Assembly: GCF_000342045.1 (NCBI RefSeq)
Contig: NZ_AONQ01000032.1
Span: forward strand, 1-50,190
Direction of reading: 5' to 3'
DNA from: Paramagnetospirillum caucaseum
Lineage (GTDB): Bacteria > Pseudomonadota > Alphaproteobacteria > Rhodospirillales > Magnetospirillaceae
Length of the DNA stretch: 50,190 nt
The notes beneath the pieces were generated by a model. That model made no database searches and was not told where the DNA came from. It saw only the letters and a list, made by a program, of their open reading frames with translations. Shown here one piece after another: positions 7,547 to 37,165 of the stretch. A program made the translations under genes and the position numbers. Each line of letters begins with the position of its first letter. Positions within the stretch are counted from its first letter, which is position 1.

Positions 7547-7743
7547 CGACATTTCCGACCGCCCCGAATTTCCACCAACCCATTGAATTCACGCCACAAT
7601 ACAGAACAGACCCGCGCCGCCATGGTCTGCACGGTGCATTGACGGCAACGCATTGATTTCATTTAATAAAATTGCAAACGCCGAAAACTCGTCCAATAAG
7701 CGGGCGTCACCGAGGGCGAATTTCGATCCATTCGAACCCGCCC
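7547..7743 (+). repeat. Dispersed repeat, copy 1
   Basis: This non-coding block fills the gap between convergent genes. Its core, from CCATGG at 7620 to GGGCGT at 7707, matches cores at 19458-19556 and 30706-30804, and more weakly 37135. The left part (GACATTTCC at 7548, CATTGAATT at 7581) is shared with copy 4 at identical distances of 72 and 39 bases from CCATGG. Inside are the palindrome TGCACGGTGCA (7628-7638) and TTGACG-N17-TTTAAT (7639-7667), which reads like a sigma-70 promoter on the plus strand. Copy 1 lacks 11 bp found in copies 2 and 3. The right end (7714-7743) can fold as GGGCG/CGCCC enclosing TTCGA/TCGAA. Confidence 0.85.
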
Positions 7744-7768
7744 ATCGAGGGCGAGGCCGGCCGGGTCT

Positions 7769-10700
7769 TCAAGGGGAATGCGCGGGCTGGAGGATCGGCC
7801 CGGCGGCCCGGTGCTCCGCCGCAATGCAATTCCGGCCTTCGCTCTTTGCCCGGTAAAGCTGGGCGTCGACCATGGACAGCAGTTCCTTGGCGGTGTGGCC
7901 CAGGCGACACTTGACGGTCAGAACTCCCAGGCTGACGGTCACGTGGTCGGCGGCCGAGGAGGCGCGGTGCGGGATGCGAAGGCCGGTCACGCCGACGCGG
8001 ATACGTTCGGCCAGCGCCATGGCGCCGAGGTGGTCGGTTTCGGGCAGGACGATGCAGAATTCCTCTCCGCCATAGCGGGCGGCGTGGTCGGACGAGCGGT
8101 TGACGATCCCCCGGATGGCGCTGCCGATCTGCCGCAGGCAATCGTCGCCGGCGACATGGCCATAGGTGTCGTTGAAGGCCTTGAAATGGTCGACATCCAG
8201 CAGGATCAGCGACAGCAGGCCCTGCGACCGGCGCAGCCGCCGCAATTCGGTGTCGAGCACCTCGTCCAGCCGCCGGCGGTTCTCGAGCCCGGTGAGGCTG
8301 TCGACCTCGGCCAGGATGGTCAGGCCGTCGCGGGCCTTCTTCAACTCGATCTGATTGCGGATGCGCATCCGGATGATCGGCGCCGAAATGGGCTTGGAGA
8401 CATAATCGGCGGCTCCAGCCTCCAATCCCCGTCTCTCGGCATCCTCATCGCCCAGGGAGGTGATGAAGATCACCGGAACATGGGCGGTGGCGATGTTGGC
8501 CTTGAGATGGGCGCAGACCTCGTAGCCGTCCATTCCCGGCATCATGATGTCGAGCAGGATCAGGTCGGGATTGGCGCTGCGGGCCAGCTCAAGCGCCCTG
8601 GCGCCGTCCGGGGCCACGACGGTCTCGTACTCCGCCCCGAGAATCTCGCGCAGCATCAGGACGTTCAGGGGATCGTCATCGATGATGAGGATCGTGGTGT
8701 CCCGGGCGCCGGCATTGACGGGCGCCGGGCATCGCTCGGCTTCCGCCGCGACGACCGAGGCAGCGCTGGCCAGGGCGGGCCGCAAGGCCGCCTCAAGGCC
8801 GGCGATTTCCTCGTCCACGTCGCGGCAACCGGGATGAATGGCCGCTTCCAGCTCCCCGGCGGCGGCGGCGAGCGCCGGTGCCTCCAGCGCGCCGGCCACG
8901 CCGCGAAGCGAGTGGGCCAGGCGCCGCGCCTCGTCGCGGCGTCCACTGCCGAGCAGGCGGCGGATCTCGGTCGCCGCCTGGGAGTGGTGCCGGTGAAAGC
9001 CGACGATCATGTCCCGTAGCAGCGCCCGGTTGCCATCGACGCGCCGGAGCGCCGCGGACAGGTCAAACGGCGGCAGCTCGGCGGGCAGATCCGGGCCACC
9101 CGCCGGCGGAACCGGCCGGCTGGTGGTCGACGGCGAGACCCGCAGACGGGATTTCAAAACCTCGTGGAGGGCAAAGGCGTCGATCGGCTTGGTGATGACC
9201 TCGTCCATGCCGGATTCCCGGCATGCCCTGGCATCCTCGTCGCCTGTCAGGGCGGTCAGCCCGATGATCGGCAAATAATCGCCACCGATCCCTTTTCGGA
9301 TCAGGCGGGTGGCCTCCAGGCCGCCCATCTCGGGCATGTCGACGTCCATCAGGATCGCGTCGAAGTTCTTCTCCCCGCCCAGGACGGCCGCCACCGCCAG
9401 CCGGCCGTTCCCGGCGACGGCGACGCTGAGGCCCATGGCCCGCAGCAGCGTGTCGGCCACCTTCTGATTGATGGGATCGTCCTCGACCACCAGGATATGG
9501 GCCGGCACCATGTCGAGATCGGGAGACCCGGCGGCGGGCGGAACGGGGGCCGCCTCCGAGGCTTGGCCGGGATATTCGAAGGGCGCCTCGAACCAGAAGA
9601 CGCTGCCCTCGCCCTCGTGGCTGTCCATGCCGATCCGCCCGCCCATGGCGTCGGCGATCTTCTTGCAGATGGCCAGGCCGAGCCCGGTCCCGCCGAACCG
9701 GCGGGTGATGGAGGCGTCCGCCTGGGCATAGGCGGTGAACAGGCTGGGCCTGGCCTCGGCCGGAACACCGATTCCCGTGTCGGCGACCGAGAAGTGGAGA
9801 AGGACGTCGTCGGCGTTCCGCCGCACGACGGTGACCGTCACGCTGATGCTGCCGTGCTCGGTGAACTTGATGGCGTTGCCGACCAGATTGAGCAGAACCT
9901 GACGCAGCCGGGTCGGGTCTCCCTTCAGGCGGCGCGGCACGGTCTCGCCGGCCTGTATGGACAGGGTCAGGCCCTTTTCCTCGGCGCGCGACGCCATCAG
10001 CGAGGTGATGCTCGAGCCCAGGCGCCAGAGGTCGAATTCCACCCGCTCAAGCTCCAGCCGCCCCGAATCCAGTTTGGAGAAGCTGAGAGTGTCGTCGACG
10101 ATGGTCAGCAACGCCTGACTGGAATAGTGGATGGTCTCGACCCAATCGCTCTGGTCGGCGTCGAGGTGGCTGCGCCGCAGCGGCTGCAGCATGCCGATGA
10201 TCCCGTTGAGCGGCGTGCGGATCTCGTGACTCATCATGGCCAGCAATTCGGACTTTGCGCGCGCGTTCTGCTCCGCCTCGACCTTGGCCTGCCTCAGGGC
10301 GTCATCGACCCGGCGGCGTTCGGTGATGTCGCGGATGATCCCGATAAACAGCCGCCCCTGCGGGCCGGACCATGTGGATACGGTCAGTTCGATGGGAAAT
10401 TCGCTGCCGTCGGCGCGCAAGGCGTACAATTCCCGGGTCTTGCCCCCGAACGGCGATTCGCTGCCCCGGCACAGCCGGGCGACGCCGGCATCGTGACCCG
10501 TCCGGTATCGTTCGGGGATGATCGTGTGCAGCGGCCGCCCGATCATCGACGCCTCGTCATGGCCGAAAATAGCCTCGGCTCCCCGGTTCCAAGACAGGAT
10601 CATGCTGTTCTGGTCGATGGTCACCACGGCATCGGCCGCCACGGCGGTCAGGGAGGCGAAGCGGGCCCCCCCGTTATCGCCCCGCCGGCGCGAGCGCAGC

Positions 10701-10777
10701 CACAGGACCATGACCCCTCCGGCGGCGAGCAGGGCCGACAGCAGGGCGGTGATCATGATCTCGCCCGGGCCACCCAT
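7769..10777 (-). CDS. Hybrid sensor histidine kinase: TM-PAS-HisKA-HATPase-REC-HPT-REC-GGDEF
   Basis: This 1002-residue signalling protein combines a full phosphorelay with a diguanylate cyclase. After one membrane segment near residues 8-28, a PAS domain covers about 45-150. HisKA follows (HEIRTPLNG near 183), then the ATPase (NAIKFTEHG, DTGIGV, GGTGLGLAI), a first receiver (ILVVEDDP near 430, Asp in MDVDMPEMGG), an HPT domain (AHSLRGVAGALEA near 620), a second receiver (ILIIDDDP near 695, LLDIMMPGMDG) and a GGDEF domain with an intact YGGEEF near 902. The output is therefore c-di-GMP synthesis controlled by phosphorylation (inference from domains). The ATG at 10777 has GGAGG six bases upstream, overlapping the stop of the EAL gene in the same operon; an internal ATG at 10756 is less likely. 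Confidence 0.92.
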   Translation of the reverse strand: MGGPGEIMITALLSALLAAGGVMVLWLRSRRRGDNGGARFASLTAVAADAVVTIDQNSMILSWNRGAEAIFGHDEASMIGRPLHTIIPERYRTGHDAGVARLCRGSESPFGGKTRELYALRADGSEFPIELTVSTWSGPQGRLFIGIIRDITERRRVDDALRQAKVEAEQNARAKSELLAMMSHEIRTPLNGIIGMLQPLRRSHLDADQSDWVETIHYSSQALLTIVDDTLSFSKLDSGRLELERVEFDLWRLGSSITSLMASRAEEKGLTLSIQAGETVPRRLKGDPTRLRQVLLNLVGNAIKFTEHGSISVTVTVVRRNADDVLLHFSVADTGIGVPAEARPSLFTAYAQADASITRRFGGTGLGLAICKKIADAMGGRIGMDSHEGEGSVFWFEAPFEYPGQASEAAPVPPAAGSPDLDMVPAHILVVEDDPINQKVADTLLRAMGLSVAVAGNGRLAVAAVLGGEKNFDAILMDVDMPEMGGLEATRLIRKGIGGDYLPIIGLTALTGDEDARACRESGMDEVITKPIDAFALHEVLKSRLRVSPSTTSRPVPPAGGPDLPAELPPFDLSAALRRVDGNRALLRDMIVGFHRHHSQAATEIRRLLGSGRRDEARRLAHSLRGVAGALEAPALAAAAGELEAAIHPGCRDVDEEIAGLEAALRPALASAASVVAAEAERCPAPVNAGARDTTILIIDDDPLNVLMLREILGAEYETVVAPDGARALELARSANPDLILLDIMMPGMDGYEVCAHLKANIATAHVPVIFITSLGDEDAERRGLEAGAADYVSKPISAPIIRMRIRNQIELKKARDGLTILAEVDSLTGLENRRRLDEVLDTELRRLRRSQGLLSLILLDVDHFKAFNDTYGHVAGDDCLRQIGSAIRGIVNRSSDHAARYGGEEFCIVLPETDHLGAMALAERIRVGVTGLRIPHRASSAADHVTVSLGVLTVKCRLGHTAKELLSMVDAQLYRAKSEGRNCIAAEHRAAGPILQPAHSP

Positions 10778-10779
10778 GG

Positions 10780-36808: not shown

Positions 36809-36856
36809 CCATCATGACTCAATCGCAGCACAACCGAAAAGAATAAAATTTATACG

Positions 36857-36872
36857 ACACTATACCTAGTGT
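36857..36872. promoter_or_regulatory. Perfect inverted repeat, operator candidate
   Basis: ACACTA (36857-36862) and TAGTGT (36867-36872) flank TACC, giving a 16-base dyad 49 bases upstream of the double-kinase start, in an AT-rich patch. It could be an operator or overlap the kinase promoter. No matching second site was found in the window. Confidence 0.45.
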
Positions 36873-37061
36873 ATTTACCCTGCGCTGTCTAATCTCACCC
36901 TTAATGATCAAGGATGAGCCTCCATGACACCTTCCCGCTCAGACACCAAATGCCGCACGCGCAATCTCCGTTGGAAGGAATGTCCGCCCACTCATCGGAA
37001 AGGAAGGATTCGATCCAGCGCTGGCGCCACGACATTCCCACGCCAGGAGGGCCCGGCTTTT

Positions 37062-37165
37062 CGACATTTCCAGCCGCAGCAGATTTCCGGCACTACATTG
37101 AATTAGCGGAAAAGTTCGTGATTTTCCCACATCTCCATGGCCTGCAGGGCATATTGACGGCAGGG
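37062..37165 (+). repeat. Dispersed repeat, copy 4 (degenerate)
   Basis: CGACATTTCC (37062), ACATTGAATT (37095) and CCATGG (37135) have exactly the spacing of copy 1, and TTGACGGCA at 37154 matches copies 1 and 3. The 11-bp palindrome has decayed (TGCAGGGCATA), and the right half with AATAAGCGGGCGT is missing or unrecognisable. It ends about 17 bases before the stop of the minus-strand gene at 37182. No gene was seen elsewhere in 36809-37181. Confidence 0.7.

Follow-up and report, generated by a model that had tools for sequence, protein, structure and literature searches.

Four repeats and the blocks between them

The stretch analysed here, referred to as the window, comprises 50,190 nucleotides of contig NZ_AONQ01000032.1 of Paramagnetospirillum caucaseum (assembly GCF_000342045.1). 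It contains four copies of a repeat, numbered att1 to att4 from left to right, which we interpret below as probable attachment (att) junctions of integrative elements at the 3' end of hupV, a hydrogenase gene. An earlier note on this DNA had described them as an unrecognised intergenic repeat, present in four copies of the same orientation. All four were found at the positions it gave. The exact cores begin at 7620, 19458 and 30706 on one strand, and the degenerate fourth lies at 37135 with mismatches at 5 of 22 core positions. The sequence CCATGGTCTGCACGGTGCATTG has three matches in the window at up to three mismatches as compared to none in 100 dinucleotide shuffles, and one further place, at 25523, has six core mismatches. 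Copies 1 to 3 can be aligned with each other over about 155-200 bp. A DNA search of the organism's own genome (E<=0.001) returned four places, namely the three main window copies and the hupV end on contig C125; across the genus, core matches number 0-4 per genome.

The flanks of the cores were analysed with leave-out models, from which the core was removed and in which each end was built from four sites of other species. The sequence preceding the core, in which the earlier note had seen landmarks at constant spacing, is indeed conserved, and the right-end model recovered it in all four copies. This model also gave two weak additional matches, one of E 0.68 at 30730-30752 and one of E 0.0096 at 34562-34633, the latter being inside a hybrid kinase gene and probably due to chance. 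The left-end model matched copies 1 to 3 only. To the right of these three cores, a conserved left end is followed on the minus strand by the 3' end, either complete or reduced to a scar, of a gene for a lambda-type tyrosine integrase.

Read from the left, the window begins with module A (187..7511, plus strand), which by Pfam encodes HlyD, two type-I-secretion/C39 ABC transporters and a cyclic-nucleotide (cNMP)-binding protein and has homologues in G003:C61, G011:C70 and G001:C502 (genome and contig of the genus set introduced below). At att1, all on the plus strand, the right end (7537..7619; model match 7537-7615, E 6.6e-11) is followed by the core (7620..7642), which agrees with the hupV 3' end of C125 at every base from its second onward, and by the left end (7643..7706; model match 7644-7754, E 2.4e-24). 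The adjoining integrase scar on the minus strand (7707..7741), which has a BLASTN match to relatives, reads GFEWIEIRPR and stop. Module B (7642..19457) encodes, according to Pfam, a hybrid kinase-GGDEF protein, a hemerythrin-EAL protein, a COX1-like protein and a tetratricopeptide repeat (TPR)-methyltransferase; homologues of 7830-15990 lie in G007:C78 and G001:C214. The att2 junction, also on the plus strand, consists of a right end (19323..19457; leave-out match 19339-19455, E 1.2e-25), a core (19458..19480) and a left end (19481..19558) kept only as far as the stop codon of the integrase gene. Over 98 bp, its core and left end share 93.9% identity with the sequence beside hupV on C125 (G000).

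Module C falls into two halves. The first (19602..25259) carries GH15, otsB and otsA (Pfam) and has homologues in six other genomes, whereas the second (25299..30460), with an ANPCAAK protein, cytochrome c7, a sigma factor and NrsF, is defined by homology to the DNA that follows hupV in G005. It is bounded by att3, with a right end (30569..30705; leave-out match 30582-30700, E 9.4e-4), a core (30706..30728) and a left end (30729..30803; E 2e-38), all on the plus strand, and a minus-strand integrase scar with an internal deletion (30804..30880), LTWPAGKTPP plus YRDVRGSEWIEIRLG and stop, in frame 1 as compared to the integrase P0001 of G013. Module D (30729..37134; PAS-GGDEF-EAL, response regulator and hybrid kinase by Pfam) ends at att4 (37001..37157, plus strand), a degenerate terminal junction with a right end (leave-out match 37057-37130, E 1.5e-7) and the mismatched core, but no left end and no integrase remains. 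The right flank (37182..50190, minus strand) encodes methyl-accepting chemotaxis proteins, GGDEF-EAL, CheB, CheR and a LuxR-type regulator (Pfam). A similar cluster in G013, in a different gene order, also comes after an att junction. The repeats thus stand between unrelated functional blocks, as had been proposed.

Homology to relatives breaks off close to these borders. The homologue block of module A ends at 7504-7511, that of B starts at 7830, that of C starts at 19602-19643, and the last genes of C end at 30438-30460, so that the homology limits lie 26-131 bp from att1-att3. Separately, the G001 homologue of module B, with the TPR-methyltransferase left of the kinase, was considered as a circular permutation. 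This idea was dropped: the TPR proteins are 51% identical, the stretches examined beside the kinase in G007 contain no TPR match, and the kinase/TPR-methyltransferase junction in the window is an ordinary 4-bp gene overlap.

The core is the 3' end of hupV

On C125 and in congeners, the 22-nt core CATGGTCTGCACGGTGCATTGA forms the 3' terminus of hupV (..C-M-V-C-T-V-H-stop). Its translation, ..VVRSFDPCMVCTVH and stop, is the end of a NiFe-hydrogenase large-subunit frame. The C125 protein gives a match to Nickel-dependent hydrogenase (PF00374); for the preceding frame, the matches are to hydrogenase small-subunit families. Because the last His is also the final residue of the protein, with no C-terminal extension beyond it, and because the protein is encoded behind a small subunit, we take it to be HupV, the large subunit of a HupUV-type hydrogen-sensor hydrogenase. 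The description "intergenic" therefore holds inside the window, but not elsewhere, where the core is coding sequence.

The genus set comprises 17 genomes including that of P. caucaseum (G000). Scanned at up to three mismatches, 14 of them contain the core at 23 places in total: 11 hupV ends, nine junctions and three unrelated three-mismatch matches, at which the end models give nothing or the bare core only (E 0.1-0.24). hupV itself was found in 13 of the 17 genomes (E<=1e-100); a 14th, G013, has a fragment of it that is cut off by the end of a contig. The remaining genomes, G004, G006 and G015, lack hupV, and none of them has a true core site. Five of the nine junctions lie on hupV's own contig, every one downstream of the gene and within 62 kb of it; the other four are on contigs without hupV (three in the window, one in G013). 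The end models match hupV ends, junctions and integrase 3' ends, and also a 49-bp piece in G008 and the Azospirillum loci L080 and L081.

Two arrays in relatives extend this picture. G016 has three cores on one strand, at 2612848 (hupV), 2575449 and 2550682. In G010, hupV at 4410640 is followed by right ends ending at 4411954 and 4420172; the interval 4411789-4419986 matches G009 2061707-2053506 (87-90%) and stops 28 bp before the second right end. Downstream of hupV in G007:C58 (L053), two right-end fragments of equal score were seen at 25890 and 26346, 456 bp apart. The hupV 3' ends of G005, G013 and G008 have other last codons and share another downstream motif, ending AAAACTCTGC, which is possibly a second att family or old chromosomal sequence. 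In G013, five genes that follow hupV were tested for an integrase domain, and none has one.

Integrases, a complete element and the proposed accretion

The integrase P0001 (G013:C32) contains the Phage_integrase domain (PF00589) and the lambda arm-binding domain (PF09003). Within the genus there are four full-length matches (P0001 itself, G012, G016 and G009); the others are partial, remnants or distant. A full-length integrase adjoins a border in G013:C32 (at the inner junction), in G012, in G009, in G016 (about 1 kb from the core) and in Dechloromonas. Among ten loci of named genomes, seven have an integrase beside hupV, be it whole, truncated where the contig stops or reduced to a 3' remnant. 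Three of these seven are genera outside the Alphaproteobacteria, including Dechloromonas (Betaproteobacteria); the other two are presumably Sulfuritalea and Azonexus. At one more of the ten, L077 (the G013:C32 locus), the integrase is at the inner junction. Of six IMG/VR loci, one also has hupV beside the integrase, and so does G063, which belongs to another genus of the family. In G009, RusA, an exonuclease and a ssDNA-binding protein accompany the integrase in the hupV-adjacent element, which therefore looks prophage-like. The G009 integrase (P0004) matched 118 phage records, all at less than 60% identity; among the matches listed (15 of 118), identity was 38.5-40.3%, with HK022 included. 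Past the whole integrase of G013:C32 (L050, 13997-17744) there are a Cas1 gene and a KAP NTPase. In Azospirillum oryzae (L080:11107-11290), an integrase that shares 60% identity with P0001 precedes, on the same strand, a right-end-like stretch (E 2e-11) and a core-like ATGGTCTGTACGGTTCACTGA. The locus is not beside hupV, so that like parts occur in a different layout.

A complete element is present in Dechloromonas sp. CZR5, where attL and attR lie 7.7 kb apart and have the sequence CATGGTGTGTAC in common. hupV ends there with GCATGGTGTGTACTGTCCATTAA, and the second core, ACATGGTGTGTACGGTGCATTGA, stands 7.7 kb further on, preceded by a right end (end model E 3e-6). The interval encodes a full-length integrase and a Rep_1-like protein. 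The two copies of the hupV end differ by synonymous last codons, as would be expected if attP had brought its own. Direct repeats of the hupV 3' end thus border elements both at the sites in the genus and in CZR5.

Since the core is the coding end of hupV and its flanks are element ends beside integrase scars, we conclude that the repeats are very probably (roughly 0.88) att junctions left by tyrosine-integrase elements whose attB is the hupV 3' end. Direct support comes from the core, the element ends, the integrase scars, the full-length integrases at hupV elsewhere and both CZR5 junctions. In the proposed mechanism, the circular element would carry an attP of the order right end, core, left end and integrase 3' end, and a crossover within the core would insert it behind hupV. 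The inserted element would provide the final hupV codons and stop, so that hupV would stay intact. A newcomer would enter at the hupV-side junction and displace older elements outward, leaving junctions of the form right end, core, left end between successive elements. The outermost and oldest junction would be expected to decay first, and att4 is the most decayed.

Judged from its sequence, the window looks like an accretion array of stacked, integrase-less elements resembling cis-mobilisable elements (CIMEs): at its junctions the att sites are kept and the integration genes are lost. With the integrase copies found in its own genome cut down to 3' scars, the modules would therefore be fixed or cis-mobilisable, and without the action of an integrase from elsewhere the array as a whole is probably immobile. 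The insertion order, the position beside hupV in the own genome and mobilisation in trans are what we infer from this arrangement. The position is supported by G005, where DNA colinear with window 25299-30460 begins shortly beyond the hupV stop, at a distance of about 220 bp for a 72-bp match and about 320 bp for the long match. Apart from two G005 gaps of about 2 kb, the order is kept, and elements may have been stacked at hupV in the P. caucaseum genome as well. A short protein with repeated ANPCAAK units is encoded at 25733-25960, and its G005 counterpart lies shortly after hupV.

Several observations weigh against this interpretation. hupV is on C125 and the window on C32, and no contig joins both. 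No full-length integrase of the P0001 family was found in the own genome, C125 matching residues 291-364 only, and none of 385 genomes drawn across the class has the integrase at E<=1e-60, in a draw that had no positive control. In Azospirillum, which accounts for two of the ten named-genome loci, the integrases lie away from hupV. In relatives, modules A, B and otsBA/GH15 occur at other loci without element ends: 13 of 14 fetched module-homologue loci (238 kb) gave a single end-model match (E 0.29), and the 14th, L159, gave none at E 0.01. The proposed accretion does not account for how these modules became cargo. Furthermore, there is no att site at the seam 25259/25299 or where the B homology stops on its right-hand side (15961-15990), and no homology block ends at att4, module D not having been searched on its own.

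Alternatives, known systems and meaning

The alternative that fares best, although we consider it improbable, is that the repeats are dispersed attP-like relics, i.e. right end-core-left end pieces of about 300 bp that homologous or illegitimate recombination placed between genes already present, no whole element having been inserted there. The repeats do have the shape of an attP, and modules A-C occur elsewhere in relatives. The otsBA/GH15 homologues were found in six other genomes, and five loci of four genomes were compared; in G016 they lie at 6900, 2.2-2.6 Mb from hupV. Relics copied into existing spots would, however, predict that the blocks adjoin in relatives without repeats, whereas L148, L150, L153 and L154 extend past the seam (6.8-8.6 kb) without a match to the adjoining block of the window (module D was left out of this comparison). 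In addition, all five junctions that share a contig with hupV are downstream of it. For the far chromosomal flank, the G009 query stretch had no match in G000 at E<=1e-50.

The three options of the earlier note are not supported, whereas one repeat family, one orientation and block boundaries are. That the repeats are a plus-strand small RNA or a transcription-boundary element is very improbable. Its appeal lies in sequence conservation between genes and in the fact that all four window copies adjoin gene 3' ends, the next gene being on the minus strand in each case and 25-167 bp separating the end of the core from the stop codon to its right. Yet this rule breaks down among eight junctions examined outside the window. 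Two of them (G016 2550681 and G008) are followed by a plus-strand gene, one (G010 4420172) by an integrase remnant and then a plus-strand gene, and two (G013:C32 and G016 2575448) by the integrase itself; at the remaining three the next gene is another minus-strand gene (G010 4411954 and G009 2061540, which have one common flank, and G013:C204). Moreover, Rfam has no match in the window at gathering scores, and the conservation is accounted for by hupV coding sequence, element ends and integrase coding sequence. A transposable repeat, either a miniature inverted-repeat transposable element or derived from an insertion sequence, would fit several similar copies between genes but is the least probable reading of all, given few copies (four places in the own genome, one of them the hupV end), a core that is hupV coding sequence and a flank that is an integrase 3' end. 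In an inverted-repeat scan of the window, none of the 25 pairs listed (of 168) lies at the repeats.

Stacked elements at the hupV end would represent an architecture of a known kind. PAISt of Streptomyces turgidiscabies is a 674-kb conjugative element at the bacA 3' end with an 8-bp palindrome, and its modular excision was shown (PMC4057263). Like the window, it combines a tyrosine recombinase, the 3' end of a protein gene as target, internal att sites that divide the island into modules, and C-terminal integrase remnants, which in PAISt are at the internal att site and at the borders of related islands (PMC4057263). Here, by contrast, the target is hupV, and the putative modules are 6-12 kb long. 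The ssrA islands of Dehalococcoides are likewise tandem, with copies of a gene 3' end as direct repeats; they lie within 100 kb downstream of the target, and integration genes stand beside attL in some and are absent in others, but they use a serine recombinase and a tmRNA target (PMC3146451). Loss of integration genes with retention of att sites, and stacking by later insertions, are features of CIMEs and tandem accretion; that model was described for integrative conjugative and mobilizable elements, whereas no transfer genes were among the Pfam-scanned open reading frames of the window (PMC5704250). The Anabaena hupL element (xisC) is a recombinase-bearing, direct-repeat-bounded element in a hydrogenase large-subunit gene, but it interrupts hupL and is excised in heterocyst development, while hupV, the sensor paralogue, stays whole (PMC4874684). 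In the TIGER/Islander survey, 43.4% of islands were in coding sequences (PMC12424338), and a protein-gene target is therefore common in itself. No description of hupV as an integration target was found among the open-licence papers listed, although such islands may stand in databases.

A wider proposal, which we regard as rather doubtful, is that the hupV end serves as a gene collector. Integrases recognising the fixed C-terminal CxxCxxH codons of the hydrogen sensor would stack large cassettes, including chromosomal pieces (trehalose synthesis, type-I secretion, cyclic di-GMP, redox sensing), in one orientation; these would be excisable, reorderable and exchangeable between Alpha- and Betaproteobacteria, much as in an integron but with modules of 6-12 kb.

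As attachment sites at hupV, the repeats would define an integration hotspot in magnetotactic bacteria and their relatives. Stacked insertions would account for the unrelated signalling and metabolic blocks that adjoin in the window, and exact borders would be obtained for modules gained and lost. Since nothing follows the last metal-ligand motif in this hydrogenase, an element could rewrite the most conserved codons harmlessly, in parallel to phages at tRNA genes.

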